64,000 bases of DNA from Pseudomonas synxantha BG33R. GTDB taxonomy: Bacteria; Pseudomonadota; Gammaproteobacteria; Pseudomonadales; Pseudomonadaceae. The position numbers were made by a program, and so were the translations under genes. Positions 58 through 32,044 of the stretch are shown here, one piece after another (position 1 is the stretch's first letter; each line of letters opens with the position of its first letter). The stretch lies in contig NZ_CM001514.1 in assembly GCF_000263715.2 (NCBI RefSeq), positions 1,350,936 to 1,414,935 of the forward strand. The letters run 5' to 3'. The notes beneath the pieces were generated by a model. The model saw nothing but the letters and a program-made list of their open reading frames with translations, did not search any database and had not been told where the DNA came from.

Positions 58-59
58 GA

Positions 60-10099: not shown

Positions 10100-10115
10100 C
10101 ATTGAGGCACAGCAA

Positions 10116-12017: not shown

Positions 12018-12071
12018 TCCGCGCCACGTTTTCGAATGCGCCAAATCGTGGCGCGCGACAAGGACCACACC

Positions 12072-14040: not shown

Positions 14041-14047
14041 GCTGAAT

Positions 14048-15890: not shown

Positions 15891-17095
15891 CCGATCCAAT
15901 CCAAGAAGTAAAAAGCTCGCTCGAAAACCAGCTGAAAGAAGGTTTCGGCGGCTTGCAGAAGAAGTACGACGCTGTTGCCGATGAGCTGCAGAAGGGCAAC
16001 ACCGTCACCGCCGAGATGAAGTCTCAGATCGAAAACCAAAAAGGTGAGATCGAGCGTGTCATCGAGCAGGTGCAGAAGCTCGAAGAAAAGGGCATCAAGC
16101 TGCGCAACCAGAACCCGGAAAAGAAAAGCTTCATCGACTTTGTTAAGGGTAACGATAACTACCAAGCCCTGACCAAAAAGACTCAGAGCTCGGCCGAAAT
16201 TGAGATCACCAAGTCCGATATGGCCAGCATGGCCGAAGTTAAGGTCACCAGCGCCGGCCTGGTTGCCCCTCAGTACGATCCTGTCATCCAGGGCGCTCCG
16301 CGCCAGAACCTGCTGATTCGCGACTTGATCCCGACCACGCCGGTAACCGGCCAGGCGTTTACCTACTACCGTGAACTGCTGCACACCCTGGGCGCGGGCA
16401 TGGTGCCAGAAGGTGGCGCCAAGCCAACCAGCAACGTGACCTTCGAGCAGGTCACCGACACCATCAAGAAGATTGCTGTATGGATGCCGGTGACCGACGA
16501 AGCGCTCGACGATGTTCCGCAGCTCTACAGCTACATTCAGGAATTGTTGCGCTTCGACCTGGAGCTGAAGCGCGAAGGTCAGTTGCTGAAGGGGGATGGC
16601 ACCGGTAATAACCTGAACGGCATCATGACCCAGGCGACCGTTTTCGACCCAGCGCTGAGCAAGGCCACTGACACGGCCATCGACACCGTGCGCCGTGCGA
16701 TCTACCAGGCGCGCAAGCAGTCTAAGCTGCCGGCCGATGCCGTGGTCATGTCCGATCTGGATTGGATGAACATCGAGCTGCAGAAGGACGGCGAGAACCG
16801 CTACCTGTTCGCCAACCTGCAAGGCCTTGTTACCCCGGTCCTGTGGGGCCGCCCAATCGTTGCCTCGGACAGCATGGACGAGGGTGACGGCGAAACGACC
16901 GGCGGCGAGTTCCTGACTGGCTCGTTCCAGCAAGGCGCGCGGATCTACGATCGCATGGGCTTCACCATCAAGGTCGGCATGATCAATGACGACTTCATCA
17001 AGAACCAGCGCGCCATCCTGGTGGAAGAGCGTCTCGGCCTGGCCGTGCGCAAGAAGTACGCCTTCGTCAAAGGCCGCTTCAAGCACGTCGCCTAA
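15887..17095 (+). CDS. HK97-type major capsid protein
   Basis: A 402-residue capsid protein. Residues about 1-90 form a charged helical delta (scaffold) domain; the HK97 fold follows from about 105, with GLVAPQYDPVIQGAPRQNLL, the E-loop region rich in Pro/Thr and ending VPEGGAKPTSNVTF, KIAVWMPVTDEALDD and a C-terminal DDFIKNQRAILVEERLGLAV strand. Length is normal for the family. The protease encoded just upstream would remove the N-terminal domain. The gene appears complete, so empty proheads could in principle still form. Confidence 0.95.
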   Translation: MTDPIQEVKSSLENQLKEGFGGLQKKYDAVADELQKGNTVTAEMKSQIENQKGEIERVIEQVQKLEEKGIKLRNQNPEKKSFIDFVKGNDNYQALTKKTQSSAEIEITKSDMASMAEVKVTSAGLVAPQYDPVIQGAPRQNLLIRDLIPTTPVTGQAFTYYRELLHTLGAGMVPEGGAKPTSNVTFEQVTDTIKKIAVWMPVTDEALDDVPQLYSYIQELLRFDLELKREGQLLKGDGTGNNLNGIMTQATVFDPALSKATDTAIDTVRRAIYQARKQSKLPADAVVMSDLDWMNIELQKDGENRYLFANLQGLVTPVLWGRPIVASDSMDEGDGETTGGEFLTGSFQQGARIYDRMGFTIKVGMINDDFIKNQRAILVEERLGLAVRKKYAFVKGRFKHVA

Positions 17096-17148
17096 CTCAA
17101 CCCAGCATCAGGGGCCTAACGGCCCCGAACAAAACTCAGGTGAATATC

Positions 17149-17340
17149 ATGGAAATTAAAGTTCTGTGGGGCTTCGAGGGCGATCCCGAAAAGCTCAAGG
17201 TTCCAAATGGCCGAGTATCGGCCGGCACCACCCTCGACGTTGAGGACGAAGAGTTGGCGCACGCGCTGATTGGTAAAGGCCTCGCAGAAAAGGCGAAACC
17301 GGCGGCGAATAAGTCGGCCAAGCCCAACGAGACCAAGTAA
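17149..17340 (+). CDS. Small head-region protein, unknown function
   Basis: A 63-residue protein; ATG at 17149 preferred (AGGTG site) over the GTG at 17140. It has a short beta-rich N-terminus and an Ala/Lys-rich tail. HK97-type phages often have such a small gene between the capsid and the head-tail connector. It lies directly against the connector gene (stop at 17340, next ATG at 17341). Function unknown. Confidence 0.65.
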   Translation: MEIKVLWGFEGDPEKLKVPNGRVSAGTTLDVEDEELAHALIGKGLAEKAKPAANKSAKPNETK

Positions 17341-17790
17341 ATGATCGACCTGGCGCGAGTGAAGAGTCACCTCAAGGTCGATGACGATGAAGAGGATGCT
17401 CTGATCGCCGGCTACTTGGAGGCGGCCAAGTCCCATGTGGGTATGCACTGCGACAGGGAACTGGTCGAGGCTGATCCTGTGGAGCCTGCTCAAATGGGGC
17501 TGACCCCTGATGTCGAGCAGGCCATCCTGCTTTTGGTTGGTCACTGGTACGCCAACCGCGAGGGCGTGGCGCTGGGCACCATATCAACCACCGTACCGCT
17601 GGCTGTTGGGCCAGAGCTATCTGCGGACCATCACCTCAGGCAATCGGGACGCCACAAGTTCTTGGCGCTCTCAAGAGGCCGCTGTGCGTGCGCAGGGCGC
17701 GGCAATGCAGTCTCTCACTTCCACAGTGGGCAGCTATGCCGCCGCAATGGCTGGTGCATTGGCAGTGGGCAACGTTGTTCACCAGGCTGA
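17341..17790 (+). pseudogene. Head-tail connector (gp6-like), 3' end replaced by a deletion join
   Basis: The first about 88 residues are a normal HK97 gp6-like connector: DLARVKSHLKVDDDEEDALI, LEAAKSHVGMHCDREL and an ILLLVGHWYANREGVALGTI helix, followed by TTVPLAVG. Family members then close with a short Leu-Pro-Tyr-Arg type ending. Here the frame instead crosses into tape-measure sequence, out of frame, and gives an unrelated Cys/Arg-rich tail to 17790. The join is near 17605. The missing block should hold head closure, head-tail joining, tail terminator, major tail tube and chaperone genes. Confidence 0.7.
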
Positions 17791-20700
17791 CGCCTGGAAC
17801 CAAGTAAATGCTAGGCTCAAACAGGCCACCACCAGCACTGAAGACTTCGCCGTAAGCCAGAAATCCTTGTTTGAACTGAGTCAGCGTACTGGCACTTCGT
17901 ATTCAGATAATGCCGGTTTGTTCAGCCGCTCGGCGTCATCGATGCGTGAATTTGGGTATTCAACATCTGAGGTGCTTGGAGTTACAGAAGCATTATCGGT
18001 GGGTCTGCAAGTATCCGGTGCGACCTCAGCTGAGGCTTCCTCTTCTATCACTCAGTTTGCTCAAGCACTTGCCCAGGGCGTGCTGCGCGGGGAGGAATTT
18101 AACTCCATCGCTGATAGCGGAGATCGTGTTCTACGCGCGCTTGCGGCAGGGATGGGCGTTGCTAGGAGCGAGCTCAAGGCCATGGCTGATAAAGGGCTGA
18201 TCACTATTGATAAGCTCGTGCCAGCGCTGATCAGCCAGCTTGGGGTCCTAAATGAAGAGTTCGGCAAAATGCCCCCTTCAGTCAGCCGCTCAACCACGGC
18301 CCTGACTAATGCCTTCCAGGCGTGGATTGGAGGAGCTGACTCAGCAACCGGCAGCACAGCGGTTCTCTCTGGTGCGATTGACCTTGTTGCAAAGAACATG
18401 GATGTATTGGCCGCGTCGGCGTTAACTGCGGGCGCCGCCTATGTCGGACTGAAGTCTGGCGAACTGATTAAGGGGTTGCGTGATCAGGTCGGCGCTTTGC
18501 GGGAAGCCCGATCTGCCGAAATTGGCCGGACTACCGCCCAGCTTGATGCGGCCACAGCCGCCGCCCGCCGTACCGCTGCAGAAGTGATCGCCGCAGAATC
18601 CCAGGTCGCAGCGACAAGATTTACCGATGGTCATACCGCAGCCCTCAGCCGCCTTCGACTCGCCAGGCTGGCTGATACCCAAGCAACCGTCGCGCAGACC
18701 GCCGCGCAAGCCGCCCAAACAGCCGCGACATCACTGGCTGGGCGGGCCGGATCGGCGCTGCTTGGGGTAATGGGTGGCCCGGCCGGGCTTGCTGTTACCG
18801 CCGGCGCCGTAGCGGCGAGCTATTTATTGTTCCGCGACAACAGCGATAAGGCCCGGCAAGCTACCGTCGACCTAAAGCGCCCCGTGGAGGAGTTGCGCAA
18901 AGAATTTTCCGAGCTTGGCAAAGAGCAGGCGCGGTATAAGCTTGACGGCGTTATCCAGCAGCAGGCGGACGCACAGGTCGCGGCACAGAAGGCGCTACGC
19001 GAGATCCGCGCCGCTGCCCAGGGCAATGACAAGTGGGGCGATACCTACTCGGCCAACCCGTTCCAGCGCGATCGGGCGGTGACAGACTTCAATCGTCGCA
19101 TTGCCGGCGGCCAGGATATTGATTCGGCCAGTCAGCAGTTGGTCGCGGCAATCGGTCCAAACAAGGAAATGACCAACGCCATCAACGCCTCGGCAGCAGC
19201 GTACGGTGAGGCCATCAAGGCCTCCGGCGATTACGGTGACGTCGCCAATATACTGACAGCACGATTAAACGATGTCGCTGACGCGGCCGACCAGGCCGGT
19301 GCGGGCCTGAAGAAGATAGAGGGGCCGGATCAGAAAACGATTGACGGCTGGACCAGTTACTCCAAGACGCTGGTGGAGCGACTGAATTCGGTGCGGGATG
19401 GCGGAGACCTGGTCGGTGAGGTGAATCGCCGTATTGAGCGTGAGGGCGTCGACCCAGCTACTGCGGAAGGCTGGCGCATTCTAGCCGGTGCTATCAAAGG
19501 TTCCGAGGCTGCGGCCAAGGCGTCGGAGGAAGCCCAGCAGAAGGCGAAGAAAGCGGCGGAGGATATTCACCGCCAAGCCGAACAACTCAACAACGCTTAC
19601 AAGCAGACCCTGGCCAACCTCACACAGCAGGTAGCGCTATATGGTGAAACTACCGAGATAGGGCGCCTCCGCTACGAGCTCACCACTGGCGAGCTTTCGA
19701 AGCTATCAGCGAAGAACAAGGTAATGCTCGAGGGCAAGGCCATTGAGCTCGACGCGCTCAATGCCAGAAAGGCCTATGACGGCTTGATGTCAGGCCTTCA
19801 AACCAAAGAGCAGGCCCTGCTTGCAACCACGAAAGAGCGGATGCAGGTCCTGGAAACAGCCAATCGCGCTGGGAAGCTGTCGTCAGACGACTATCGCGCC
19901 GGCGCTGATGCCATCTCGAAAGCCACCGTTACCGAGGCGCCAGAGTTTGGTGGCATCGACTCATCGGTGGGCGGGCCGTCCGGTGAGCTGGTCAAGATTG
20001 CAGAGGCCGAGGCCGCCCTGAAAAAGTGGCACGACAAGCAGATGTCGATGCAGGCCGAACTTCGCGATCAGATCCTGGCCGACCAGCAAAGCACCAACGA
20101 ACAGAAGCTCGCCGCCGAGCAGCAGTACTTGGACCGGGTGGTGGAAATCAACCAAACGAACCAGGCGAGGCTTTCTGACATTCAGGGCGCCTATAAAGTG
20201 GCCGTGATCGGCACCTTCAGCGAGTTGTCGGGCCAGGCCGCAGACATGGTTGGCAAGATCGCTGGCGAGCAGTCTGGCGCATACAAGGCGTTGTTTGTCG
20301 CGCAAAAGGCGTTCGCGGTGGCGTCGATCATCATGAACGCCCAGATAGCTGCAGCGAAGGCACCGGCGGAACTGACCATCCTGGGCGGTATACCGGTGGG
20401 CGCGGCGCTGCTGGCAGCGGGTTACGCAAATGCGGGCATGGTCGCCGGCATGGCGCTGGCCGGGTTCTCCGAAGGTGGTTTTACCGGCCCGGGTGGCAAG
20501 TTTGAGCCGAAGGGTGTGGTTCACGGCGGCGAGGTGGTCATCCGCAAGGAGGTGGTCGATCAGCCTGGAATGAAGGATTACCTCATCGGCCTGAACCGTA
20601 GCGGTAAGCCAGGCTATGCGAGCGGCGGATTCGTCGGAAGCCCAGGTATCACACCGGCCTTCACCGCTCCATCTGTCGCGGCGGGCGCCGGGTCAGGCTC

Positions 20701-20896
20701 TGCCCCAGAGATTCACCTTCACATCAATGGCGACGGATCTGGTGGATCTGTGAACGCGCCGGAAGGCTATGAGCAGATGGGGCTGGCGCTGCTTGCCACC
20801 GCACGCTCCGAAATGCCCAAGATCGCGCGCCAAGTGATCGTGCAAGAGAAAGGCCAAAACGGCCTGCTCGATCCAAACAACCGGAGAAATAGCTGA
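17510..20896 (+). CDS. Tape measure protein, N-terminus fused by deletion
   Basis: The frame is open for 1128 codons; recognisable tape-measure sequence starts only near 17610 (residues about 34 on, ATSSWRSQEAAVRAQGAAMQ), while the preceding codons are the connector gene in another frame. The true start is uncertain; an in-frame ATG at 17705 is another choice. Features are the tape-measure N-domain (GNVVHQADAWNQVNARLKQA), ALAQGVLRGEEFNSIADS, long Ala-rich helices, two hydrophobic segments (about 300-320 and 425-445) and a C-terminal GFSEGGFTGPGG turn. It sets tail length and is ejected with DNA. No tail-tube gene remains in this prophage to be measured. Confidence 0.8.
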   Translation: MSSRPSCFWLVTGTPTARAWRWAPYQPPYRWLLGQSYLRTITSGNRDATSSWRSQEAAVRAQGAAMQSLTSTVGSYAAAMAGALAVGNVVHQADAWNQVNARLKQATTSTEDFAVSQKSLFELSQRTGTSYSDNAGLFSRSASSMREFGYSTSEVLGVTEALSVGLQVSGATSAEASSSITQFAQALAQGVLRGEEFNSIADSGDRVLRALAAGMGVARSELKAMADKGLITIDKLVPALISQLGVLNEEFGKMPPSVSRSTTALTNAFQAWIGGADSATGSTAVLSGAIDLVAKNMDVLAASALTAGAAYVGLKSGELIKGLRDQVGALREARSAEIGRTTAQLDAATAAARRTAAEVIAAESQVAATRFTDGHTAALSRLRLARLADTQATVAQTAAQAAQTAATSLAGRAGSALLGVMGGPAGLAVTAGAVAASYLLFRDNSDKARQATVDLKRPVEELRKEFSELGKEQARYKLDGVIQQQADAQVAAQKALREIRAAAQGNDKWGDTYSANPFQRDRAVTDFNRRIAGGQDIDSASQQLVAAIGPNKEMTNAINASAAAYGEAIKASGDYGDVANILTARLNDVADAADQAGAGLKKIEGPDQKTIDGWTSYSKTLVERLNSVRDGGDLVGEVNRRIEREGVDPATAEGWRILAGAIKGSEAAAKASEEAQQKAKKAAEDIHRQAEQLNNAYKQTLANLTQQVALYGETTEIGRLRYELTTGELSKLSAKNKVMLEGKAIELDALNARKAYDGLMSGLQTKEQALLATTKERMQVLETANRAGKLSSDDYRAGADAISKATVTEAPEFGGIDSSVGGPSGELVKIAEAEAALKKWHDKQMSMQAELRDQILADQQSTNEQKLAAEQQYLDRVVEINQTNQARLSDIQGAYKVAVIGTFSELSGQAADMVGKIAGEQSGAYKALFVAQKAFAVASIIMNAQIAAAKAPAELTILGGIPVGAALLAAGYANAGMVAGMALAGFSEGGFTGPGGKFEPKGVVHGGEVVIRKEVVDQPGMKDYLIGLNRSGKPGYASGGFVGSPGITPAFTAPSVAAGAGSGSAPEIHLHINGDGSGGSVNAPEGYEQMGLALLATARSEMPKIARQVIVQEKGQNGLLDPNNRRNS

Positions 20897-21234
20897 TGGC
20901 AGAGGTATTCAACTGGTCGCCCCGGGTTGGCTCTTCCGGTGACGATCAACCTGACGTGCTTGAGTCGAAGTTCGGTAACGGCTACAGCCAGCGATTATCG
21001 GTCGGAATAAACAATGTTGCTGGCGCGTACACCGTTTCCTTCACGGGCGGGGAGGCTTACATCAAGCCGATCCGGGAGTTCTTCAAGCGGCACAAGGGGG
21101 CAAATCACTTTCTGTGGACCCCGCCGCTTGAGGTGCAAGGGGCGTTCATCACTACCGGTGGATGGCAACTGCAAACCCATGGCAACAAGAAGTACACCCT
21201 CAGCACCACTTTCCAGCAGGTATTTAACCCATGA
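20896..21234 (+). CDS. Minor tail protein, lambda gpM type
   Basis: A 112-residue protein of the Phage_min_tail family: EVFNWSPRVGSS, ESKFGNGYSQRLSVGINN, FFKRHKGANHFLWTPP and a C-terminal LSTTFQQVF strand. It overlaps the tape-measure stop (TGATG) and the gpL gene (ATGA). gpM joins the tail-tip complex beneath the tape measure. A second copy is encoded at 48083 in the F-type tailocin. Confidence 0.92.
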   Translation: MAEVFNWSPRVGSSGDDQPDVLESKFGNGYSQRLSVGINNVAGAYTVSFTGGEAYIKPIREFFKRHKGANHFLWTPPLEVQGAFITTGGWQLQTHGNKKYTLSTTFQQVFNP

Positions 21235-21917
21235 TCACTTTGGACGACCAGAAGCTCGAGCCGGGCGCGGTTATTCAGCTGATTGAGTTGGACGGCGAGG
21301 CGCGTGGAATGGGCATCTTGCGGTATCACGCGCATCAACAGTCCACGCCGATCATCTGGAAGGGCGACGTGTATCTACCACGTCCTTATGAGACCGGCGG
21401 GTTCGGGCGCAGCGTTGAAGGCAACAACTCCACACCCATGCTGAAGATCAGCAATATCGACGGAACGATTACAGCGCTATGCCGGCGATTCCAGGGGATG
21501 AGCGGGGTCAAGCTGACGGTTCGGCAGACCTACGTCAAATACCTAGACCCTGCGAATTTCCCAGAGGGCAACCCGACGGCCAGCACCATGGAAAGGCTCG
21601 ACATCTCATATATCAACCAGGTCACCAGCCTGTTGCGTGAAGAGGTGGTGTTTTCGTTGGCCCCTCCGACTGCTGTTAAGGGTCAGAGGTTGCCGGGCGG
21701 CCTGATCATGAACCGGTGCGAATGGTGCCTTTGGGGCGAGTACCGTGGCCCGGACTGCAACTACACCGGGATCAAGATGTTCGACCTCGACGGCAACCCA
21801 GTGGACGACCCGGCACTGGATCGCTGTGGCGGCCGGCCAAGTGACTGCGAAATCCGCTTTGGCAAGGGCAACCCGTTGTCGTTCGGCGGCGCCCCTGGCG
21901 CTGCGCTTATTGGATAG
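21231..21917 (+). CDS. Minor tail protein, lambda gpL type
   Basis: A 228-residue protein of the gpL family. The N-terminal barrel begins LEPGAVIQLIELDGEARGMG. The C-terminal domain has the four cysteines that hold an iron-sulphur cluster in lambda gpL: RCEWCLWGEYRGPDC (two of them), then DRCGGRPSDC. Order M-L-K-I-J is preserved downstream. Its paralogue is at 48473. Confidence 0.92.
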   Translation: MITLDDQKLEPGAVIQLIELDGEARGMGILRYHAHQQSTPIIWKGDVYLPRPYETGGFGRSVEGNNSTPMLKISNIDGTITALCRRFQGMSGVKLTVRQTYVKYLDPANFPEGNPTASTMERLDISYINQVTSLLREEVVFSLAPPTAVKGQRLPGGLIMNRCEWCLWGEYRGPDCNYTGIKMFDLDGNPVDDPALDRCGGRPSDCEIRFGKGNPLSFGGAPGAALIG

Positions 21918-21922
21918 ACCCC

Positions 21923-22675
21923 ATGAACAAGACGATGCTGAAACAAATTCAGGCGCACGCTGCGGCGGAGTTTCCGAAGGAAAGCTGCGGCGTGGTGATC
22001 CGTGAGGCCGGGCGGCTGAAGTACGTTGCCTGCCGCAACGATGCCAAGACCCCCAGCGAGCACTTCATCATCAACCCCGAGGATAAGTGTGACGCTGAGG
22101 ACCGTGGCGAGGTGACGATGATCATTCACTCTCATCCCGACGTTCCACCCATGCCGAGCATGACCGATCGTGTCAGCTGCGAATTGCATGAAAAGCCGTG
22201 GGGTATTGTGAGCTGGCCGTCTGGCGAGTACTTCGAATTCAAGCCTGATGGTTACCAGGCCCCGCTGGTTGGCCGCGAGTTCGGCCATGGTCTGCTGGAC
22301 TGCTATGCCCTGTGCCGCGATTACTACGAGCGCGAGCATGGGATTGAATTGCCGAACTACCCACGCCGGGACGGCTGGTGGAACGATGGTGAGAGCCTCT
22401 ACGAGAAGTACTACGAGGAGGCCGGTTTCTATCCGGTTTCGATGCCGCGCAAGGGTGACATGATCGTCATGCAGATCAACGCCGCTGCACCGAACCATGC
22501 AGGAATCTATCTGGGTGACGGCTTGCTGACCAGTGCCCCGGAGCTGCACCCGGCCCCGGGCACCTTCCTGCATCATCGCTACAGCAAGAAATCCACCCGC
22601 GACGTTTACGGCGGCATGTGGGCTGATTACACCGTGCTGATTCTTCGGCACCAACGAATGCCGGAGGTTGACTGA
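21923..22675 (+). CDS. Tail tip peptidase, lambda gpK type (JAMM plus NlpC/P60)
   Basis: A 250-residue two-domain protein. Residues about 1-85 form a JAB/MPN domain with metal motif HSHPDVPPMPSMTD and an upstream Glu in PKESCGVV. Residues about 110-245 are an NlpC/P60 cysteine peptidase with GLLDCYALCRDYY (catalytic Cys) and PNHAGIYLGDGLL (catalytic His). In lambda K the pair acts in tail-tip assembly, and the peptidase probably opens peptidoglycan during entry. Both active sites look intact. It overlaps gpI by one base (TGATG). Confidence 0.92.
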   Translation: MNKTMLKQIQAHAAAEFPKESCGVVIREAGRLKYVACRNDAKTPSEHFIINPEDKCDAEDRGEVTMIIHSHPDVPPMPSMTDRVSCELHEKPWGIVSWPSGEYFEFKPDGYQAPLVGREFGHGLLDCYALCRDYYEREHGIELPNYPRRDGWWNDGESLYEKYYEEAGFYPVSMPRKGDMIVMQINAAAPNHAGIYLGDGLLTSAPELHPAPGTFLHHRYSKKSTRDVYGGMWADYTVLILRHQRMPEVD

Positions 22676-23271
22676 TGGCAATGAAAACTACGGTTAACCC
22701 GCAGCCTTTGGTGGTGCTGGTGATGCTTTATGGTGTGCTTGGCGCCCGGTTCGGTCGCGTTCACCACCTGGCCGTAGCGTCATGCGCTGAGGCGATTCAT
22801 GCGTTGTGCGTGAAGATCCCCGGCTTCAGACGGTTCTTGCGCTTTTCGGAAGAGCGCGGCCTGACCTACGCAGTGTTCCGCGGGAAGAAGAACCTGAGCG
22901 ATACCGAGATTGAGATGCGCCAGGACACCGTTGAGCCGATCCGTATTGCGCCAATTGTGATTGGCAGCAAGGGAGGCGGCTTGTTCGCCACCATTGCAGG
23001 TCTTGCCCTGGTGGTGGTCGGTGCAATCACCCAGCAGTACTACTTGGTAGCAGCTGGTGCTGGCCTGATGATTGGCGGTATCGCCATGAGTATGTCCCCG
23101 TCACCGGTGGGCGTGCTGGACAAGGAGGGCGATGGCAACAGGCCGTCCTATGCGTTCGGCGGGGCGGTCACCACGATGGCCCAGGGGCGCTGCAAACCAC
23201 TTCTGTATGGCGAACGCGATATCGGTGGCGCCCTCATCTCGGCTGGCGTCTTTTCGGAAGATCAGCAGTAA
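22675..23271 (+). CDS. Tail assembly protein, lambda gpI type
   Basis: A 198-residue gpI homologue: an N-terminal ubiquitin-like part (VLGARFGRVHHLAVASCAEA, then IHALCVKIPGFRRFL), a central glycine-rich hydrophobic stretch (about 100-140) and the conserved ending YAFGGAVTTMAQG ... LLYGERDIGGALISAG. gpI helps assemble the gpJ tip and does not remain in the mature tail in lambda. Two further paralogues are encoded at 49966 and 50592. Confidence 0.9.
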   Translation: MAMKTTVNPQPLVVLVMLYGVLGARFGRVHHLAVASCAEAIHALCVKIPGFRRFLRFSEERGLTYAVFRGKKNLSDTEIEMRQDTVEPIRIAPIVIGSKGGGLFATIAGLALVVVGAITQQYYLVAAGAGLMIGGIAMSMSPSPVGVLDKEGDGNRPSYAFGGAVTTMAQGRCKPLLYGERDIGGALISAGVFSEDQQ

Positions 23272-23280
23272 GGAAAACCC

Positions 23281-26200
23281 ATGTCTAAAATCGCAACAGC
23301 GCCTGCTGCAAAGCATCGGCGCCGGCCTACTGCTGCCCGCGTTTTGGGCGCCAAGGGGGGCGAGCAGAAGCCATACACGCCCTACAAGGCACCCGATACT
23401 GCGCTTTCTGTTGCCACTGTAAAATTGCTCTATGCCTTGAGTGAGGGCCCAATCGTCGGCCTGGTCGATGATAAGAAGTCGGTAAAACTCAACGGCACGC
23501 CGCTGGTCTCGCCTGACGGTAGCGAGAACTTTCCCGGTACCGTTTGGGATTTCCGCCCGGGCACTGTGGACCAAGAACACATTCCAGGCTTTCCGGCCAT
23601 TGAGAACGAGGCGTCCCAGGGGCTGCCGGTTGAGTTGAAGTCGGATAACGCCTGGACGCGTGCGATCACTGATCAGCAGTTGTCGGCTGTGCGCATCCGT
23701 TTGTCCTGGCCGCAAATTTGGCAGGTCAAGACGAATGGCGACCAGATCGGCTACCGCATCGACTACGCCATTGATCTTTCCGTAGATGGCGGAAGCTATC
23801 AAACGGTTTTGTCGGCGACCCTGGACGACAAAGGGACAACCGAATACGAGCGCACCCATCGAATCGACCTCCCTGAGGGCTTCACCAGTGCGCTGGTTCG
23901 CGTGCGCCGACTCACCCCCAACCGAAACGATTCCAATTTTGCGGACCTGATGCGCATCAAGGGGCTGACGGAGGTAATCGACAAGAAGCTCCGCTATCCG
24001 AACCTGGCGCTGGGCGGCCTGCAGTTCGATGCCAAGCAATTCCAGGACACGCCAAAGGCCAGCTTCCTGATGCGCGGCCGAATTATTCAGGTACCGACGA
24101 ATTACAACCCAGAGACCCGGACCTATACAGGTGACTGGAACGGCACCTTTAAGCTTGCCTATACAAATAACCCGGTCTGGGTTTGGCGCGACCTGCTGTT
24201 GCATCGTCGCTATGGCTTGGGCCGCCGCATCACCGCTGACATGGTGGATCACTGGACGCTGTACGAGATCGGTCGCTATTGCGACGTGATGGTGCCAGAC
24301 GGCAAGGGCGGTATGCAGCCGCGTATGACCACCAATGTCTATATTCAGGATTCGATTGAGGGATACGCGCTCCTTTCGGATCTGGCCAGCGTGTTCCGTG
24401 GCAGCAGCTGCTGGAACGGCTCGCAGGTCACTATGGTGGCGGACATTCCCGGCAACGAGGACGGCTACGTTTTCACCCGCTCGAACATTATTGGCGAGTT
24501 CGAGATGGTGGGTGCCGCCTATCCTGATCGGCACACCAGGGCAAAAGTCGCATGGGATAACCCGGAAAACGAGTTCAAGACCCAACCGGCTCCGGTAACC
24601 AATGAGGAACTGATCGGCGCCCTCGGGCACCGGATGCTGGATATCTCGCGTTTCGGCTGTACCGTGGAGGGAGAAGCAATCCGTCACGGTATCTGGGCGC
24701 TCAAGTCTGAGCAGTATGAGGAGTGGTCGGTAAGCTTCACCACCGGCATGGAAGGCCGCAACGTCGAGCCTGGCCAGATTATCTGCGTGGCAGATGAAAC
24801 CTTCGCTGGCCGGCCAAATGGCGGTCGGATCAGTGCGGCCACCAGGCGCGTGATAACTCTCGACATTGACGCCGAGGTACACGAGGAGGACCGTCTGATC
24901 CTCAACTTGCCGAGCGGCAAATCCGAAGGTCGTATCGTAAAGTCGGTCTCCGGGCGCCTGGTCACCGTCATGGCAGACTATTCGGAGCTCCCAGAGGCTG
25001 AATGCAGTTGGTCCGTGGAAAGTGCTGATCTGGCCGTGATGCGCTTTCGTGTGCAGACCATCGAGCCGCAAGGGCTGCACCAGTTCAAGATAGCTGCCAC
25101 TCAACATGAGCCCCTTAAGTACCAGGCGATCGACACTGGCGCACGCATTGACCCACAGCCAACGAGCATCATTCCACCAGGGGTGATGTCTCCGCCGGAT
25201 AACGTCAGCATCGAGGCGCGCAGCGTCGTATCGCAAGGCATTGCTGTTACCAGTATGCGTATCACCTGGGACTCGGTACCGGGGGCCATTGCGTACAACG
25301 TGGAATGGCGCAAGGACAGCGGAAACTGGATCCGCTTGCCGCGCACGGGGAGCTTGGGTGCAGAAGTTGAGGGCATCTACAGCGGTCGCTACGTTGCTCG
25401 GGTTAGCTCGGTCAACGCAATGGACGTGGCCTCTATTTGGGGCGCCAGCCCTGAAGTGATGCTGACAGGCAAGACCGGCCTGCCACCGGCGGTGTCGTTC
25501 CTAACCACCACCAGCCTTGTATATGGCATTGGCATTCAGTGGGGATTCCCACCAGGTGCAGAGGACACTGAGCGCACGGAACTTTGGTACAGCCAAACGG
25601 CTGACCTGGCGACCGCGATAAAGCTGAGCGACTTCAGTTACCCGCAAGCCAAGCACGAAATGCACAGCCTGTTGGCTGGCGCGAGTCTGTTCTTCTGGGC
25701 TCGCCTGGTGGATCGGACCGGCAACGTCGGCCCATTCTTCCCTGTACCTGGTGCGGTCAATGGTCAGGCCAGTTCGGATCAATCCGAGTATGAAAAATAC
25801 TTTGCGGACAAGATCGGAAAGGGCGCCCTGTACCAAAGCCTTCGAGAAGAGATCGAGCTGATTACAGGTGATGGTCCAGGATCTGTGAATGAACGCCTGG
25901 AGGAGGCCAAGCAGGAACTTGAAGACCTGATCAAGAAAGTGAGCGATGCCCTCGCTTACGACCCGGCAAAGCCGTATTTGAAGGGCGAAATCGTGCGTCT
26001 GGATCAACGCCTCTACCAAGCGAAAGGCCCTGTGCCTGTCGGCGCAACGCCGCCCGACGCCACGTACTGGACCGATATTGGCACCATCATTGAGACCACT
26101 GACGCGCTGGTGTCGCAGGTCCAGATCATCGAAACCAAGATCGAGGAAATCGACGGCAAGGTGTTGGCCACCGCTACCTCCGTCGAGGCGTTGCGTTCTG

Positions 26201-27276
26201 CTGCTCGGGGTGATGATGGCGCTGGCGATCTTGCCGACGCAGTCAAGGGTTGGACATCCACGGCGGATCTTGCCGTTGAGCGTAAAACCCGAGCCAGCGA
26301 AAATGATGCGATGGCCCAGCAATTGCTGACCTTGGGCGCACAGGTTGGTGACAACAAGTCGTCGCTGACGGTGCTTGAGCAGGTTGTTGCCACCAACCGC
26401 GAAACGTCCGCAACGCAGATCACCCAACTCAAGAGTGACCTGTCTGCGGTTGATCAAAAGGCGATCGGCAATGCCCAAGCGATTAATGGCCTCGACACGA
26501 AGGTCACCAACTTGGACGGGCGGGTCACGGCCCAGGCATCCAGCAATGAATCACTGCGTGCTTCGGTGCGTGGTGACGACGGCGCCGGCGAACTGGCGGG
26601 GGCGTTGAAAGCGTATGAGTCCACCGCAAGTATCGCCCAGCAGATGCGTGTTGAAGCATCTCGCGAATTAGCAACTGCTGAGCGGCTGACTACCTTGCAG
26701 GCCGGGATTGATAGCGCGAAGGGGCTTATTCAGCAGGAGGAGCTGGTAAGAGCCACAGCGATAGAAGTGCAGTCCAAACGGACTGATACGGTCCAGGCCA
26801 GTCTGGGCCAGACCAATGCATCGGTTCAGCAGGTGAGTCAGGTCGTAGCGGGCCTTGACGGCAAGGTATCGGCACAGACAACCATCAAGGCCCAGACCAA
26901 TGTGGACGGAAAGAAAGTAATGGCGGGGCTCGCTCTGGGCAGCGATGGGGAGACGTCCGAAATTCTGGCGTTTGCTCAGCGATTCGCCATTATCGACGAG
27001 GTCAGTGGCGCTGCAACTTTCCCGTTTGTGGTTTCTGGCGGGCAGGTGTTCATTAGTTCGGCAGTAATTAAGACGGGCATGATCACCAATGCCATGATCG
27101 GTAATTACATTCAGTCAAATAACTACGTGGCAGGGGTCAGCGGGTGGAGGCTTTCATTCGACGGTACGTTTGAAATGAACGGGAATATTGCTGGCCTTGG
27201 CACCATGAGGCTAACCAATACATTCCTTAAATTCATTTACGCCAACGGTGTGGTTGGTATTGATCTGAGTCTCTAA
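23281..27276 (+). CDS. Central tail tip/host-specificity protein, lambda gpJ type
   Basis: A 1331-residue gpJ. The N-terminal part (about 25-600) has the conserved GAKGG start, LLYALSEGPIVGLVDDKKS, LLLHRRYGLGRRI and WSVSFTTGMEGRNVEPGQI. Fibronectin-III-like modules follow (about 630-850). The C-terminal stalk (about 880-1230) is helical with two imperfect repeats of about 50 residues, each opening with LRxxxRGDDGAGxLA. The tip ends with IQSNNYVAGVSGWRLSFDGT, the motif also seen in the gene at 10116. It should bind the host receptor. AAGGA precedes the ATG. Confidence 0.93.
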   Translation: MSKIATAPAAKHRRRPTAARVLGAKGGEQKPYTPYKAPDTALSVATVKLLYALSEGPIVGLVDDKKSVKLNGTPLVSPDGSENFPGTVWDFRPGTVDQEHIPGFPAIENEASQGLPVELKSDNAWTRAITDQQLSAVRIRLSWPQIWQVKTNGDQIGYRIDYAIDLSVDGGSYQTVLSATLDDKGTTEYERTHRIDLPEGFTSALVRVRRLTPNRNDSNFADLMRIKGLTEVIDKKLRYPNLALGGLQFDAKQFQDTPKASFLMRGRIIQVPTNYNPETRTYTGDWNGTFKLAYTNNPVWVWRDLLLHRRYGLGRRITADMVDHWTLYEIGRYCDVMVPDGKGGMQPRMTTNVYIQDSIEGYALLSDLASVFRGSSCWNGSQVTMVADIPGNEDGYVFTRSNIIGEFEMVGAAYPDRHTRAKVAWDNPENEFKTQPAPVTNEELIGALGHRMLDISRFGCTVEGEAIRHGIWALKSEQYEEWSVSFTTGMEGRNVEPGQIICVADETFAGRPNGGRISAATRRVITLDIDAEVHEEDRLILNLPSGKSEGRIVKSVSGRLVTVMADYSELPEAECSWSVESADLAVMRFRVQTIEPQGLHQFKIAATQHEPLKYQAIDTGARIDPQPTSIIPPGVMSPPDNVSIEARSVVSQGIAVTSMRITWDSVPGAIAYNVEWRKDSGNWIRLPRTGSLGAEVEGIYSGRYVARVSSVNAMDVASIWGASPEVMLTGKTGLPPAVSFLTTTSLVYGIGIQWGFPPGAEDTERTELWYSQTADLATAIKLSDFSYPQAKHEMHSLLAGASLFFWARLVDRTGNVGPFFPVPGAVNGQASSDQSEYEKYFADKIGKGALYQSLREEIELITGDGPGSVNERLEEAKQELEDLIKKVSDALAYDPAKPYLKGEIVRLDQRLYQAKGPVPVGATPPDATYWTDIGTIIETTDALVSQVQIIETKIEEIDGKVLATATSVEALRSAARGDDGAGDLADAVKGWTSTADLAVERKTRASENDAMAQQLLTLGAQVGDNKSSLTVLEQVVATNRETSATQITQLKSDLSAVDQKAIGNAQAINGLDTKVTNLDGRVTAQASSNESLRASVRGDDGAGELAGALKAYESTASIAQQMRVEASRELATAERLTTLQAGIDSAKGLIQQEELVRATAIEVQSKRTDTVQASLGQTNASVQQVSQVVAGLDGKVSAQTTIKAQTNVDGKKVMAGLALGSDGETSEILAFAQRFAIIDEVSGAATFPFVVSGGQVFISSAVIKTGMITNAMIGNYIQSNNYVAGVSGWRLSFDGTFEMNGNIAGLGTMRLTNTFLKFIYANGVVGIDLSL

Positions 27277-27277
27277 T

Positions 27278-27583
27278 ATGGTCGGATTAGTAATAAGGGA
27301 TCGCGATACGGGTCTGGTTAAAGTCGATATGACTATGAGTATTAGCCAGACCCAAGGATCAGTGGTTACCAACTCTGCGAATGGTTCAATAGCGATCCCG
27401 GCACCGCCCCCTGGAAAGGTCCAGTTTCCAATCGTCGTTCCTCTTCAGGACAGGCAGCTCGAAAAGGGAAAGGTCCCGTCGGTAACCATATCCAACGGGG
27501 TTCTCTCTTGGATCTACTCGTACAACACCAATGGCTGGGGTAATTTTTCAGCCAATTGCATTATTTACTACGGTTATTATTAA
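27278..27583 (+). CDS. Tail-tip accessory protein, unknown
   Basis: A 101-residue, beta-rich protein with a Pro-rich centre (IAIPAPPPGKVQFPIVVP) and an aromatic C-terminus. It starts 2 bases after the gpJ stop and overlaps the next gene by one base. The F-type tailocin has a small gene of similar size at the equivalent position (55164), which suggests a tip- or fibre-associated structural role. GC content falls from this gene onward. Confidence 0.6.
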   Translation: MVGLVIRDRDTGLVKVDMTMSISQTQGSVVTNSANGSIAIPAPPPGKVQFPIVVPLQDRQLEKGKVPSVTISNGVLSWIYSYNTNGWGNFSANCIIYYGYY

Positions 27584-28485
27584 TGGCTAATCTCGTAGTT
27601 AAAAAACAAGATGGCAGTCTTCTGTTTGATACGGCCAAAATTACCTATGGTCTTGTGAAAAGCGGAAACCTGAGCGTCATCGAGACCTGGTGGCGCCGGA
27701 GTTTTAAAGGAGGGAACGTAGATCCTAATTGGGGGGGGAACTGGACAAGCTCAGGTGTAAGTCCTAGCGTTGCCTTGTCAGATGTTATTTATGGCTTCAC
27801 TGTGGTTGGAGCCTCGTCGCCAATCGTGTTTCTCACTGGCAGCGGCTGCTTGCAGGGGACAAAGATTTCCGGCGATTCAATGACTTTTCTTTACACCAAC
27901 GCAAGCGTAAATACTAAGTTCTATTGCTTTGATTTGATGAAGGACGCTATTGCGGGGTCTCCGTACTTGAAAACCCGGCAAACGGACGGTGCAATGACGT
28001 TTAACTCTCTGCAACTGGCCTTGAATGTAGTTGCATCCATTCAAGCGCCTCCGCCGACGGGAACGCAGGAGTCGCAATATCCAATCCCATCGGGTAGCAG
28101 GCCATACGCGAATGCCGTCTTGAATGTTGAGCAGCGCGAAACACCTCCCAGTTACCAGTCAAATATATTTACCGCCAAGGTAACGATTAATATCAAGCCG
28201 GGCGTTGAGTACGCCGCGTACCTTCCCTGGAGTAGGGGGTGTCAGATCTGGTTGTACGGTCTCAATGAGTCGAAGCCGACCTATCGTTATGGGGGGAGCG
28301 AGGGGTGTGGCGGTGTCGTAGGAGGCATTCAGTTTATGTTCGGGCCTGCTGGGGGGACACCTCAAGATCACCCGACGGTTGTGAGTGGTACTCCAATGCC
28401 ACCAAACTTTTCGCAAGTTGCAACGGATAGGCTACCGACCGCGTTGGTGATCGAGACGGCCAACCTGCCATTTCCCTTCAACTGA
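27583..28485 (+). CDS. Tail-associated protein following gpJ, unknown
   Basis: A 300-residue protein from the ATG at 27583, which shares a base with the previous stop. It is beta-rich, with many Gly, Ser and Tyr residues and no membrane segment, as expected for an exposed virion protein. It has lower GC than its neighbours and runs of G unusual for the region, suggesting recent exchange. By position it corresponds to the gene at 55433 in the tailocin. I cannot assign a domain. Confidence 0.6.
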   Translation: MANLVVKKQDGSLLFDTAKITYGLVKSGNLSVIETWWRRSFKGGNVDPNWGGNWTSSGVSPSVALSDVIYGFTVVGASSPIVFLTGSGCLQGTKISGDSMTFLYTNASVNTKFYCFDLMKDAIAGSPYLKTRQTDGAMTFNSLQLALNVVASIQAPPPTGTQESQYPIPSGSRPYANAVLNVEQRETPPSYQSNIFTAKVTINIKPGVEYAAYLPWSRGCQIWLYGLNESKPTYRYGGSEGCGGVVGGIQFMFGPAGGTPQDHPTVVSGTPMPPNFSQVATDRLPTALVIETANLPFPFN

Positions 28486-28502
28486 TTTATTAGCTCAAAG
28501 AG

Positions 28503-28526
28503 CCCGCCGTGTGCGGGTAATTTTTT
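28503..28526 (+). terminator. Hairpin with T tract before the fibre gene
   Basis: CCCGC / GCGGG with a 5-nt loop, then AA and six T residues. The ribosome-binding site of the fibre gene (TGGAGAAA) follows immediately, so this may be a partial terminator or a module boundary rather than an operon end. Confidence 0.6.
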
Positions 28527-28540
28527 GTCTGGAGAAAAAT

Positions 28541-29302
28541 ATGGCTTCTTGGTTTTCAGAAGGAACCGTCACCGTCAATAACGGCAACACCGTTGTGACT
28601 GGTGTCGGTACGAAGTTTTCAAACTGCCGCTCTGGCGATATGTTTGTCGGTCCAGATAACGGCGTCTATCAGGTTATAAACCCGTCGAGCGATACCTCCG
28701 TGTCGATCTCGCCGGCTTATCGCGGAGCCAATGCCTCCGGCGCGTCCTACGGCATTGTCCCTGTAAACGGCTACCCAAAGGCCCTGGCCGATGCGGTCAA
28801 CCTGATGGTTCAGCAGTGGGGAGCCACGCTCGCAGGACTTGGTCCCGTCTCCAGTATGGCGGTTGTCCCGTTTGCAAATGGTGGTACAGGTACTACCACC
28901 AAGGCAGCAGCCAAGGTGGCACTGGACCTGGGTACCGCTTCTGCAAAAAACTTTGGCCTTACTAACGGCGACTTGATTCCGGCGGGCGTACTCAGCGGGA
29001 TGTTTTCCAATGTTGCCCCAGACGCCTATCAAATGGACAGACCTGGCGAGCCCGGGCAACAAGGAGCTTTCTACAAGTTTCTGAATAACGGATCTTCGTC
29101 TGGGCTGAGCTACTCAACCCTGATTCGAATTCCGTACAACGTTGGATATGAGGCGCAGATTTTCATTCCTGTGTCGCAAGGCACCGGTTCGCTGCTCTTC
29201 CGCACCACGCCTGGTGCCGCTGGAACCTTCGGCCCCACGTATAGCGTTTACCACACTGGAAACACCACTCGTGCCGCAGACGGCACCTTAAAGGCTATTT
29301 AA
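28541..29302 (+). CDS. Tail fibre protein
   Basis: A 253-residue protein; ATG at 28541 has TGGAGAAA upstream. Residues 1-90 look like the fibre attachment domain (ASWFSEGTVTVNNGNTVVTG, then SISPAYRGANASG). A FANGGTGTTTKAAAK turn follows, then a beta-rich C-terminal domain ending YHTGNTTRAADGTLKAI. That ending is shared in pattern with the tailocin fibre at 56210 (ADGSIKAI). It should bind the host surface, with its chaperone encoded next. Confidence 0.82.
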   Translation: MASWFSEGTVTVNNGNTVVTGVGTKFSNCRSGDMFVGPDNGVYQVINPSSDTSVSISPAYRGANASGASYGIVPVNGYPKALADAVNLMVQQWGATLAGLGPVSSMAVVPFANGGTGTTTKAAAKVALDLGTASAKNFGLTNGDLIPAGVLSGMFSNVAPDAYQMDRPGEPGQQGAFYKFLNNGSSSGLSYSTLIRIPYNVGYEAQIFIPVSQGTGSLLFRTTPGAAGTFGPTYSVYHTGNTTRAADGTLKAI

Positions 29303-29857
29303 ATGACTACTCGCGCAGCGGTAAACATTCTAGGCGCAACTGGCGCTGTCATTGACATCGCCTCCCTGGGTGTCGACTCCATTACCACAGAACACCCAGG
29401 CCCCGGCCAGTACCTGGTCTACGGCACGCTCGGGATGGCGCTGGCCCCTGAAGGTTGGGGCTACGTTTTGAACCAGATGGATGCGGCTTGCTCAGTAGCG
29501 ATCAGCTACCATGACGGAGTGCTGGCGGTGAGCGTTGCAAAAGACGGTGAGCCTGCAGATCTGGCACACAGTATTACTCTGCATGTGGCAGTTGACGCCC
29601 TGCCGGCCCAGGAGATTCCTCAATTGCCCCCAACTCCAGCCGATCCCCTGGAAGCCGCCCAGGAAGAAATCGCTAAGCTACGTTCAGCCGCCGACTACGC
29701 TATCGCGCCACTTCAGGATGCGGTTGATGTCGACGAAGCCACGGATGCGGAGCTCGCTGCCCTGAAGGTATGGAAGAAGTATCGGCTGGCGCTTAGCCGA
29801 GTGGTCGACCAGGCGGATTATCCGCAATCCATTGAATGGCCCGTCATTCCGGCTTAA
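29303..29857 (+). CDS. Tail fibre assembly chaperone
   Basis: A 184-residue protein abutting the fibre stop. The N-terminal half (about 1-100) has a small beta domain (GQYLVYGTLGMALAPEGWGY) that is also the whole of the tailocin protein at 57244. The C-terminal part (about 118-184) is the caudoviral tail-fibre-assembly domain, with AALKVWKKYRLALSRVVDQ and the ending YPQSIEWPVIPA. Such chaperones help fibre trimers fold and usually match their fibre specifically. Confidence 0.82.
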   Translation: MTTRAAVNILGATGAVIDIASLGVDSITTEHPGPGQYLVYGTLGMALAPEGWGYVLNQMDAACSVAISYHDGVLAVSVAKDGEPADLAHSITLHVAVDALPAQEIPQLPPTPADPLEAAQEEIAKLRSAADYAIAPLQDAVDVDEATDAELAALKVWKKYRLALSRVVDQADYPQSIEWPVIPA

Positions 29858-29877
29858 CGGGTACCGCGCACCACCAG

Positions 29878-29898
29878 CCGCCTTGAGCGGTATTTTTT
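29878..29898 (+). terminator. Hairpin with T tract before the endolysin gene
   Basis: A short CCGC / GCGG stem with a CTTGA loop, then TATTTTTT and the CGCCTGGAGAAA ribosome-binding region of the endolysin. Weak stem; probably a linker of the type repeated at other module boundaries in this window. Confidence 0.45.
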
Positions 29899-29914
29899 CG
29901 CCTGGAGAAAAGCC

Positions 29915-30448
29915 ATGCCTATCACCGAGCAGCAAATGCTGCAGATACTCCCGAACGCCGGCCGCAATGCCGGCGTTTTTGTTCCTGTGCTGAATGCGGC
30001 GATGAGTCGACACGCCATTGTCACCCCGCCGCGCATCGCGGCGTTCATCGCCCAGGTCGGGCATGAGTCGGGCCAGTTGCGTTACGTGCGGGAGATTTGG
30101 GGACCAACGCAGCAACAGGCCGGGTACGAAGGTCGTGCCGATCTGGGCAACACCGTGAAGGGTGACGGTTCCAGGTACCGTGGTCGTGGCCTGATCCAGG
30201 TCACTGGGCGTGCCAACTATGCCGCGTGCGGCGAGGCCCTGGGGCTGGACCTGATCAACAAGCCTGAATTGCTTGAGTTGCCCCAGCACGCCGCCATGTC
30301 AGCGGCCTGGTTCTGGTCGACCAAAGGCCTAAACACGCTGGCGGATCAGGGGCAGTTCGCGAAGATCACCCGACGTATCAACGGTGGGCTTACCGGCCAG
30401 GACGACCGCCAGGCGCTGTATGAAAAAGCGCTAAAGATCATGGGGTGA
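29915..30448 (+). CDS. Endolysin, glycoside hydrolase family 19 (chitinase-like)
   Basis: A 177-residue muramidase of the GH19 type. Motifs are AAFIAQVGHESGQLRYVRE (the Glu in GHESG is the expected acid), YRGRGLIQVTGRANY, and the terminal ITRRINGGLTGQDDRQ. No signal peptide, so it depends on the holin at 11160, which lies 18 kb upstream in the same late operon. A closely similar enzyme ends the tailocin cluster (59266). The start follows CTGGAGAAAAGCC. Confidence 0.92.
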   Translation: MPITEQQMLQILPNAGRNAGVFVPVLNAAMSRHAIVTPPRIAAFIAQVGHESGQLRYVREIWGPTQQQAGYEGRADLGNTVKGDGSRYRGRGLIQVTGRANYAACGEALGLDLINKPELLELPQHAAMSAAWFWSTKGLNTLADQGQFAKITRRINGGLTGQDDRQALYEKALKIMG

Positions 30449-30547
30449 AGCTGTCGCAGAAGATCTGCGAAAGGGTCGTGGTACACAAATATGCACTGAA
30501 AGTACTGGCGTTAATTGCGTGAGGTAGTTTTATATCTGTATAAAGCT

Positions 30548-31594
30548 CTACTGGAAATACCTCCTAATTGAAATCGAACCCAACTCGTTAAACCAGAACG
30601 GGTTGCCGTTGACTTCTACCATCTGATTAATCATCTTGCCCATGAGTCCAGATGGTATTTCGGAGTTTTTTCCCTCTGATACTCGCTGAAACTCACGAGC
30701 CATGCAGAAACTTATGAAGTCAGCTATTTCTAAGAGGAAATGACTTCCGGGTTGAACAAACTTTGGAGGATGGACTGCAATTCCTGCGCACAAATAAGTG
30801 AAAAGTCGAGTGTACTGGAGTCCTAAAAAGCACTCGTCAGCCCATCCCTCTTTTTTCGTTCCGTCTGTTGTGTCTTTAATGTTGTCAAACGTCCATCTTA
30901 TGCCCTTGTTATTTTCTCTGAATATTGATAGCGTGGTAAGTAATGCCTGTTTGTAGATGTCTTGCTTTTGATGTTTTAACGCAGAGGCTCGGTCTTTTTT
31001 GTTTTCTGGTAAAATTATCGCGTTTGAAAAGTTAAATGTTGAAAGGTGCGGCTTTAGGTTTTTAATTAGCTTCGAGAGTTTTTGGCCGTAAAATATTTTT
31101 TCTTGAACACTGCTGAAGCTAAAAACTCTATCTTCTCCGCTATCACTCCAAATTTGAGTGAAGTGGTGGGGCCAAAGCTCTGGTGCCACATCTGGACGTG
31201 CAACTAGTTTTAGCTTTTGAATTTTGTTTTTAGCGATATCGTGCTTGTCCTTGTGCAGTCCGACCAGTGATATGCAAAAGAAGCTAATCTGTTTGCCATT
31301 GCGGGTTATTATTCTTGCTGCCTCGTCTCCGAATAAATTCCAAGTGCTCTCTTTCTCTTTGATTGGGGTGTTGAAATGAAAGTCTTTTTTGCAATCTAAG
31401 CATGTTATTGGGAATGAGACAGGTACCCAGTGCCCTGAAGCGTCGGATAATTCAATTGGCTCCTTTGGGAAAAGTAAATCCTCAACCCAGTTAATATCAT
31501 TTTTGAAGCCGCAGTAGATGCATGTGGCCTTGACAGTATCTAAATCAACTGGGACGACGCCTGGGTTTTTTCTAAATGGCCTTTTGTCTACCAT
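30548..31594 (-). CDS. AT-rich moron protein with CxxC pairs, unknown function
   Basis: A 348-residue protein on the strand opposite to the late genes, with clearly lower GC than everything around it and its own strong site (AAGGAGGA). Two cysteine pairs near the N-terminus (CIYC about 26-29 and CLDC about 64-67) suggest a zinc-binding head. The rest is soluble and mixed alpha/beta, with a helical C-terminal third containing LQYTRLFTYLCAGIAV and FISFCMAREF. No family recognised. An independent, foreign gene at a prophage's right end beside the attachment site is the classic place for a lysogenic-conversion or phage-exclusion gene; that role is inferred from position only. Confidence 0.75.
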   Translation of the reverse strand: MVDKRPFRKNPGVVPVDLDTVKATCIYCGFKNDINWVEDLLFPKEPIELSDASGHWVPVSFPITCLDCKKDFHFNTPIKEKESTWNLFGDEAARIITRNGKQISFFCISLVGLHKDKHDIAKNKIQKLKLVARPDVAPELWPHHFTQIWSDSGEDRVFSFSSVQEKIFYGQKLSKLIKNLKPHLSTFNFSNAIILPENKKDRASALKHQKQDIYKQALLTTLSIFRENNKGIRWTFDNIKDTTDGTKKEGWADECFLGLQYTRLFTYLCAGIAVHPPKFVQPGSHFLLEIADFISFCMAREFQRVSEGKNSEIPSGLMGKMINQMVEVNGNPFWFNELGSISIRRYFQ

Positions 31595-31636
31595 ATACAG
31601 ATCCTCCTTTTCATAGTTGGTTTCGGCGCCCGAGCT

Positions 31637-31665
31637 GCGCCAAATACAAAAGTCGGATTTGGCGC
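31637..31665. repeat. Perfect 9-bp inverted repeat near the prophage end
   Basis: GCGCCAAAT (31637-31645) and ATTTGGCGC (31657-31665), separated by 11 bp. It lies just upstream of the moron gene and could be an operator for it or part of the attachment region. There is no T tract on either side that would make it a terminator. Confidence 0.6.
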
Positions 31666-31724
31666 TGCATCGATTCTTGCCATAATTTTGCCCGTTGGAT
31701 ATGTGGCGTAATATGGCAAGAAAG

Positions 31725-31800
31725 CTGTCTAATACTAGGTCGGGCTATCCCGGTTTTACAGGCCCTCCCACGCACTTCCTTTCTCATTAGTTTTAGACAG
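31725..31800. repeat. 13-bp inverted repeats, candidate integrase/excisionase arm sites
   Basis: CTGTCTAATACTA (31725-31737) is the inverse complement of TAGTTTTAGACAG (31788-31800) at 12 of 13 positions. The pair lies about 50 to 115 bp from the phage-mutS junction in non-coding phage DNA, where arm-type sites for tyrosine integrases usually occur. Identification is inferred from position and symmetry. Confidence 0.4.
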
Positions 31801-31825
31801 TGATTGGTTGGAAGCCAATGAACAC

Positions 31826-31850
31826 GTAGTCTTTAGGCTACTCAAGCCCA
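31826..31850. other. Prophage right attachment junction (attR) inside mutS
   Basis: Bases 31850 and above read as mutS codons 1-18; below about 31850 the sequence leaves mutS. An imperfect palindrome GTAGTC-TTTA-GGCTAC (31826-31841) sits at the junction and could be the core integrase site. The exact crossover cannot be fixed without the left junction, which lies outside the window. Confidence 0.65.
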
Positions 31851-31903
31851 TACTGCTGCATCATCGGGGTGTGGGAGGACAGGTCTGAAGTGTTTTTACT
31901 CAT
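31838..31903 (-). pseudogene. mutS: 5' fragment of mutS separated by prophage integration
   Basis: From the ATG complementary to 31901-31903 the frame reads MSKNTSDLSSHTPMMQQY, matching the conserved start of Pseudomonas MutS (which continues with Trp-Arg/Lys-Leu-Lys), then Gly-Leu-Glu and a TAG. The remaining more than 800 codons of this mismatch-repair ATPase must lie beyond the other prophage end. mutS upstream of the tailocin and cinA-recA is the known order in the P. fluorescens group, which supports the identification. No strong ribosome-binding site precedes this ATG, so the native start could be slightly different. Confidence 0.85.
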
Positions 31904-32044
31904 TGGGTAGTAGGCAAATTCGTTGAAAGTGATGGGGCAAAGGGGGCGCTTGGCCCAGCATTTTTTGCGATGGCGGCAAGGTTAACACGCGAGGTCGGCC
32001 CTTCGCAGGTCGCAAACGGCTAGGTAAAACGCAAATTAACCCAA

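Follow-up and report, generated by a model that had tools for sequence, protein, structure and literature searches.

A 35.6-kb prophage lies within the start of mutS in Pseudomonas synxantha BG33R, and the explanation that best covers the data as a whole, which we regard as very probable, is that the mutS-like sequence at its right end is the attR of a temperate-phage element that re-heads this gene. In the proposed mechanism, a tyrosine integrase would act on a short stretch of attP and on the HTPMMQQ codons close to the mutS start, recombining the two. The phage would carry, beside its integrase gene, a stand-in mutS start consisting of a leader, a start codon and the codons for MTDLSSHTP, which integration would join to the rest of mutS at attL, so that the lysogen would read a full-length MutS with a slightly altered N-terminus. 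The native leader and first codons would be left stranded at attR, and precise excision would return the native start in frame. The window, i.e. the whole stretch of 64,000 nucleotides analysed, corresponds to G000:C1:1350936-1414935, where G000 is the genome under study (Table 1).

Table 1. Features of the prophage and of its junctions with mutS. Positions refer to the window unless a contig is given.
Feature	Position	Strand	Remarks
Remaining 3.8 kb of the prophage: excisionase-like gene, integrase, attL, then mutS	G000:C1:1347144-1350935 (L004)		left of the window
Right-hand 31.9 kb of the 35.6-kb prophage	1..31850	.	
CI-like repressor	849..1625	-	phrog_4, E 1.1e-34
Large terminase	12904..14040	+	378 aa, N-terminal part absent; homologues 99% identical have 565 aa
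Portal, head maturation protease and major head protein genes	13943..17095	+	
gp6-like head-tail connector	17341..17790	+	leaves the family after ~90 residues; overlaps the tape-measure frame
Tape-measure gene, nearly whole	17510..20896	+	joined to the connector; no major tail or tail terminator gene in between
ORF adjoining attR, 348 aa	30548..31594	-	no PHROGs, Pfam or PADLOC match
Arm-type-like motif CTGTCTAATACTA, phage side of attR	31725..31737	+	64-nt spacing as in phiAH14a attP
Second arm-type-like motif TAGTTTTAGACAG, phage side of attR	31788..31800	+	inverted relative to CTGTCTAATACTA
Orphan native mutS start, attR	31838..31903	-	from sequence; second partial match is mutS-side; N-terminus shared with empty-site relatives
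Common core ATGATGCAGCAGTA	31851..31864	-	mutS codons 14-17 plus two bases; 14 bp identical at attL and attR (junction comparison)
Native mutS leader, stranded upstream of the orphan start	31904..32035	-	~130 bp aligned with empty-site relatives

On the minus strand, positions 31903-31850 read 18 mutS codons, ATG AGT AAA AAC ACT TCA GAC CTG TCC TCC CAC ACC CCG ATG ATG CAG CAG TAT, that translate as MSKNTSDLSSHTPMMQQY. They are followed by GGG CTT GAG TAG, that is three phage codons (GLE) and a stop ending at 31838. The interval 31903-31838 is attR of the prophage, the opposite end of which is found 3.8 kb beyond the left window edge. The preliminary description had placed a prophage within the first 18 codons of mutS and had assigned everything left of 31838 in the window to it. 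The sequence, the two core copies and the relatives with an empty site bear this out, and the prophage continues for ~3.8 kb past the window edge. In the empty-site relatives L114, L115, L117 and L118 the 18 residues are identical or differ by one residue and lead directly into WRLKNQHPDQL. Of 398 genomes examined in the genus, 395 contain a match to a codon pattern for HTPMMQQY (CAYACNCCNATGATGCARCARTA), and 376 of them contain exactly one by hand count; the reversed-pattern control gave 0 in every row listed. The match at 31903-31850 is not due to chance. BG33R carries two copies, at G000:C1:1382786-1382808 (attR) and at G000:C1:1347144-1347166, the head of a complete mutS. We give practically no credence to the reading, named beforehand as one that would undo the proposal, that the 18-codon peptide is the start of an unrelated small gene or a chance resemblance: no support for it was found, and it is contradicted by the matching half sites, the integrase at the other half, the empty sites and the attP of a related phage. 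With L114, L115 and L117 the stranded native leader aligns from ~130 bp before the ATG onward. A consensus scan of this leader found no sigma-70-like site in the mutS direction, and no obvious Shine-Dalgarno sequence was seen by eye at the usual distance before either the native or the phage-supplied mutS start.

Left of the window, where the preliminary description had advised looking and had cautioned that a new start might be supplied, we found the integrase, attL and the continuation of mutS. Here mutS is an open frame of 859 aa (L004:3670-6249, minus) beginning MTDLSSHTPMMQQYWRL. The prophage provides an in-frame start codon and the codons up to the 14-bp core at attL, and because it brings its own copy of the first codons, mutS is still a full gene. 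The re-headed protein matched five MutS Pfam domains; it is 99.7% identical to that of L006, and MutS identity places the host near P. lactis. On the same strand, 51 bp separate the end of the tyrosine integrase gene (329 aa, L004:6301-7290) from the mutS start downstream of it, and an excisionase-like gene precedes the integrase gene. A second mutS elsewhere in the genome, which had also been named as a finding that would overturn the proposal, was sought and rejected: MutS_V has one match in the single 6.30-Mb contig, at the left junction, and this is the sole mutS.

These results bear on the earlier suggestion that the lysogen, with the gene parted from its promoter and start, is a mutator without working MutS. 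The separation from the native leader and start is real, and a consensus scan of the phage leader and integrase region yielded no sigma-70-like promoter against 0.5 expected, a result that is not decisive; expression of mutS from its new head is thus unproven. The part of the claim that concerned loss of MutS did not stand at the sequence level, however, given the complete open frame, the new start and the five domains, and the same re-heading recurs in many relatives. We therefore consider a mutator state very unlikely. The phage leader presumably drives enough mutS expression, and MutS with the new N-terminus is presumably active.

The copies of ATGATGCAGCAGTA at attL and attR differ in their flanks on both sides, and the crossover most likely falls inside the identical 14 bp. 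Upstream of the core, DLSSHTP is encoded by GACCTTTCAAGCCACACTCCA on the phage side and by GACCTGTCCTCCCACACCCCG on the host side, with six base differences, all synonymous. Joining the host halves in silico, with the crossover assumed in the identical core, produced an in-frame mutS of 863 aa (MSKNTSDLSSHTPMMQQYWRL), which aligned with each of the empty sites in L114, L115, L117 and L118 in one alignment across the junction, at 89-90% over ~1.6 kb. Since the joined flanks give an open frame, integration and precise excision should both keep mutS in frame. A frameshift on excision of the kind known from V. splendidus 12B01 was considered and rejected, as the in-silico junction retains the 863-aa frame under the same assumption. 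The preliminary description had further likened the element to SpyCI of Streptococcus pyogenes as an on/off switch of mismatch repair; this analogy fails, because mutS keeps an unbroken coding frame whether or not the prophage is present.

The integrase is 95% identical over its length to that of phage phiAH14a (KU708004), which was reported to be induced and packaged (PMC4936722). The genome record of this phage holds an attP of the same layout, including a mutS-like start, and its motifs TATTAGACA, GTCAAATA, GTCTAAAA and TATTAGACA have spacings of 19 and 64 nt, equal to those of attL and attR here; the word 'mutS' is absent from the accessible text of the phiAH14a paper. In BG33R the present, phage-derived leader of mutS contains the arm-type-like TATTAGACA and TGTCAAATAGACA, TGTCAAATAGACA ending ~20 bp before the start codon. 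We infer that these motifs, CTGTCTAATACTA, TAGTTTTAGACAG and those of phiAH14a are arm sites of the integrase. By their sequence, the integrase gene, the excisionase-like gene and the att sites with their arms look whole, and integrase and excisionase are probably still functional in this prophage.

What would change between the lysogen and the excised state is the leader and the first MutS residues. This leads to an extension of the preferred reading and compatible with it, a promoter-swap switch of the active-lysogeny type, in which the mutS leader is exchanged on integration and excision and MutS level and mutation rate differ by state while the gene stays unbroken. The true difference in leader and first codons between the states argues for it, as do the intact integrase and excisionase-like genes, the att arms spaced as in phiAH14a, and the scarless excision in P. 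putida F1 seen by Chu et al. 2017 (PMC5296598), who, as far as the accessible text goes, propose a promoter or leader change on excision for this strain and others. However, a full-length re-headed gene is also what a phage needs simply to spare its host, and we hold such a switch to be possible at most as a tentative addition. It appears improbable to us that the damaged element is retained in the role of a mutS regulator. On that reading, because arm-type-like motifs lie inside the mutS leader, binding of integrase there and excision could reduce or exchange mutS expression and so couple the mutation rate to induction of the prophage, in the neighbourhood of a tailocin cluster whose repressor is of the S24 type.

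As the preliminary description had stated, the element is defective, and the damage can be placed in the terminase and in the connector and tape-measure genes: judged by its genes, it has a truncated large terminase and a connector fused into the tape measure. The two top homologues of the terminase, taken from the best 120 of 8000 matches, carry PF03354, a domain that was not found in the protein here. Among the 40 prophage ORFs scanned with PHROGs none was named as major tail or tail terminator protein, and the packaging and head-tail gene set is incomplete compared with that of an intact temperate phage. Virions of its own are unlikely to be formed by this prophage. A close DNA relative of the structural module was not found: three phage records, phiAH14a not being one of them, match window 10000-31900, none above 80% and the best with 11% coverage. 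For window 15887-18500, two of 57 relatives gave a match, namely the genome itself and one match of 31 bases (E 8e-4).

Relatives of the integrase were found at 74 loci, nine in genome contigs and 65 in viral contigs. Within the fetched DNA, 56 of the 74 have a mutS match downstream of the integrase gene; it follows the end of the integrase match at a distance of 54-60 bp, or after a further 0.6-2.4 kb. The remaining 18 show no mutS match, and most of these end before the mutS position or are attP-like. In L034, L049, L059, L065 and L076 a mutS-like start is followed by other DNA, the attP-like form; in L041 and L075 neither mutS nor a mutS start was seen. Records of the P. aeruginosa phages F_TK1718sp/PAK (integrase 55% identical) and Y8 show a mutS-like start and then a stop, and no mutS-like start occurs in the ~90-110 downstream bases on record for Bordetella phage PHB09 (integrase 43%) and Burkholderia phage KS5 (32%). 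A survey of the same 398 genomes found the integrase in 15 (E <= 1e-60) and two or more matches of CAYACNCCNATGATGCARCARTA in 19 by hand count, with both present in 11; at least three of the 19 have a copy that is not mutS (L137, L143 and L146). Where it could be measured, the core-to-core length is smallest in G087 (16.4 kb) and largest in G118 (57.0 kb), and the 55,060 bp measured in G030 equal the length of the phiAH14a record.

Several of these relatives have peculiarities of their own. The 16.4-kb mutS element at G087:C19:63221-79684 has a related integrase and is perhaps a satellite or a remnant. Variable cargo of 0.6-2.4 kb is inserted between integrase and re-headed mutS in L006:7179-7973, L018, L024, L025, L032, L043, L050, L058 and others, mostly on the opposite strand and with the short leader before mutS kept. 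Two of ten cargo ORFs had a Pfam match (Zeta toxin and SDH-type protease) and eight had none. PADLOC returned nothing for eight ORFs between integrase and mutS or for two uncharacterised ORFs of the window (0 of 10). In L023:7000-7536 and L038 a 178-aa ORF follows the integrase gene and its first residues resemble the integrase N-terminus, as if the integrase start had been duplicated. In G358 (L088, L094, L127, L149) the integrase is matched twice, both times over residues 1-249 only, and the start on the mutS side does not resemble the other phage leaders; this genome possibly holds two elements or one decayed one. In the integrase group of L013, L066, L067, L069, L071 and L072 the phage leader would lengthen the MutS N-terminus (MSIRQK...), the ATG lying within a repeated TATTAGACAG region.

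Conservation of the phage-borne start was examined in 89 loci, of which 79 hold the site and 77 of these also an arm motif upstream; 60 distinct leaders with at least 150 bases upstream were retained. Each of the 60 has a start codon, ATG in 58 and GTG in two, from which the frame reaches HTP without meeting a stop, compared with any start codon in 32 of 120 cases for the two other frames of the same leaders. The start codon lies ~27 bases from the core, a position not easily explained by the needs of the integrase alone. Comparing phage and host copies of the seven codons in ten genomes gave 43 synonymous and 11 non-synonymous base differences, in which a non-synonymous change in HTP could not appear because these three codons are fixed by the search pattern. 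For the four free codons the ten pairs show 31 synonymous versus 11 non-synonymous differences, and ~23% of random changes would be synonymous. Seven of the ten pairs lack a non-synonymous difference, and two (G307 and G339) have only non-synonymous ones. G358, one of the 11 genomes with integrase and two cores, was dropped because its mutS-side copy lacks phage-leader features. Across the family, pairwise comparison of 22 distinct four-codon segments gave 239 synonymous versus 948 non-synonymous differences and no synonymous excess; the seven-codon comparison gave 1583 and 2294, respectively. A copy acquired from the mutS of another species would also give the synonymous pattern within pairs. 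The leader sequences thus lend good support to the view that open frame and start are kept in the phage, and selection on the protein sequence is not settled by them.

The prophage insertion in the mutS start is a further member of the type of element described by Chu et al. 2017 (PMC5296598), the only publication that a full-text search found to join mutS with the HTPMMQQ motif. In the accessible text, these authors report elements in this motif in hundreds of Beta- and Gammaproteobacteria that provide a new mutS start and promoter, scarless excision in P. putida F1, E. coli 536 and B. multivorans CF2, and an excision in V. splendidus 12B01 that leaves a 2-bp deletion and yields a hypermutator. 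The BG33R element shares with them the insertion in HTPMMQQ, the integrase gene adjoining mutS (at 51 bp, within the 300 bp expected of such elements), the element-given start, the orphan native start at the far end and, here in silico, a mutS in frame after precise excision; it differs from the 2-bp-deletion type of 12B01. It is a damaged lambda-like prophage, and the likeness seen is one of site and layout. With phiAH14a it shares an integrase of 95% identity, the attP with a mutS-like start and equal motif spacings, but its structural genes are damaged and have no close DNA match to that phage. SpyCI (PMC4129442) likewise derives from a phage and sits at the 5' end of a gene for mismatch repair, but as described in the accessible text it interrupts expression of mutL, whereas here the target is mutS and its frame is whole at the sequence level. 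A literature search at title level, with most subscription papers outside its reach, found no paper title naming this Pseudomonas mutS element.

To the right of attR, window 32913-62499 holds a tailocin-like cluster with both contractile sheath/baseplate genes and lambda-like tail genes, then recA and recX, with its S24-type repressor at 32913-33683. It is of the same sort as the mutS/cinA tailocin locus that Mavrodi et al. 2009 (PMC2647930, accessible text) describe in fluorescent pseudomonads, having sheath and lambda-like tail genes followed by recA and recX, and it lies outside the att sites and is no part of the mutS prophage. A 180-aa ORF with a Zeta-toxin-type domain, at 32256-32798 on the minus strand, lies in the interval that separates the orphan mutS start from the repressor of the tailocin cluster.

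In phages that enter a conserved repair gene and re-head it, nature offers an example of a virus equipped with a usable version of a host gene's start. The 60 distinct leaders and the ten matched pairs of phage and host junctions provide material for examining whether selection on such phages keeps mutS working and whether mutation rate depends on the state of the prophage. For BG33R, the lesson is that a mutS start found split off next to a prophage does not by itself make the strain a mutator.
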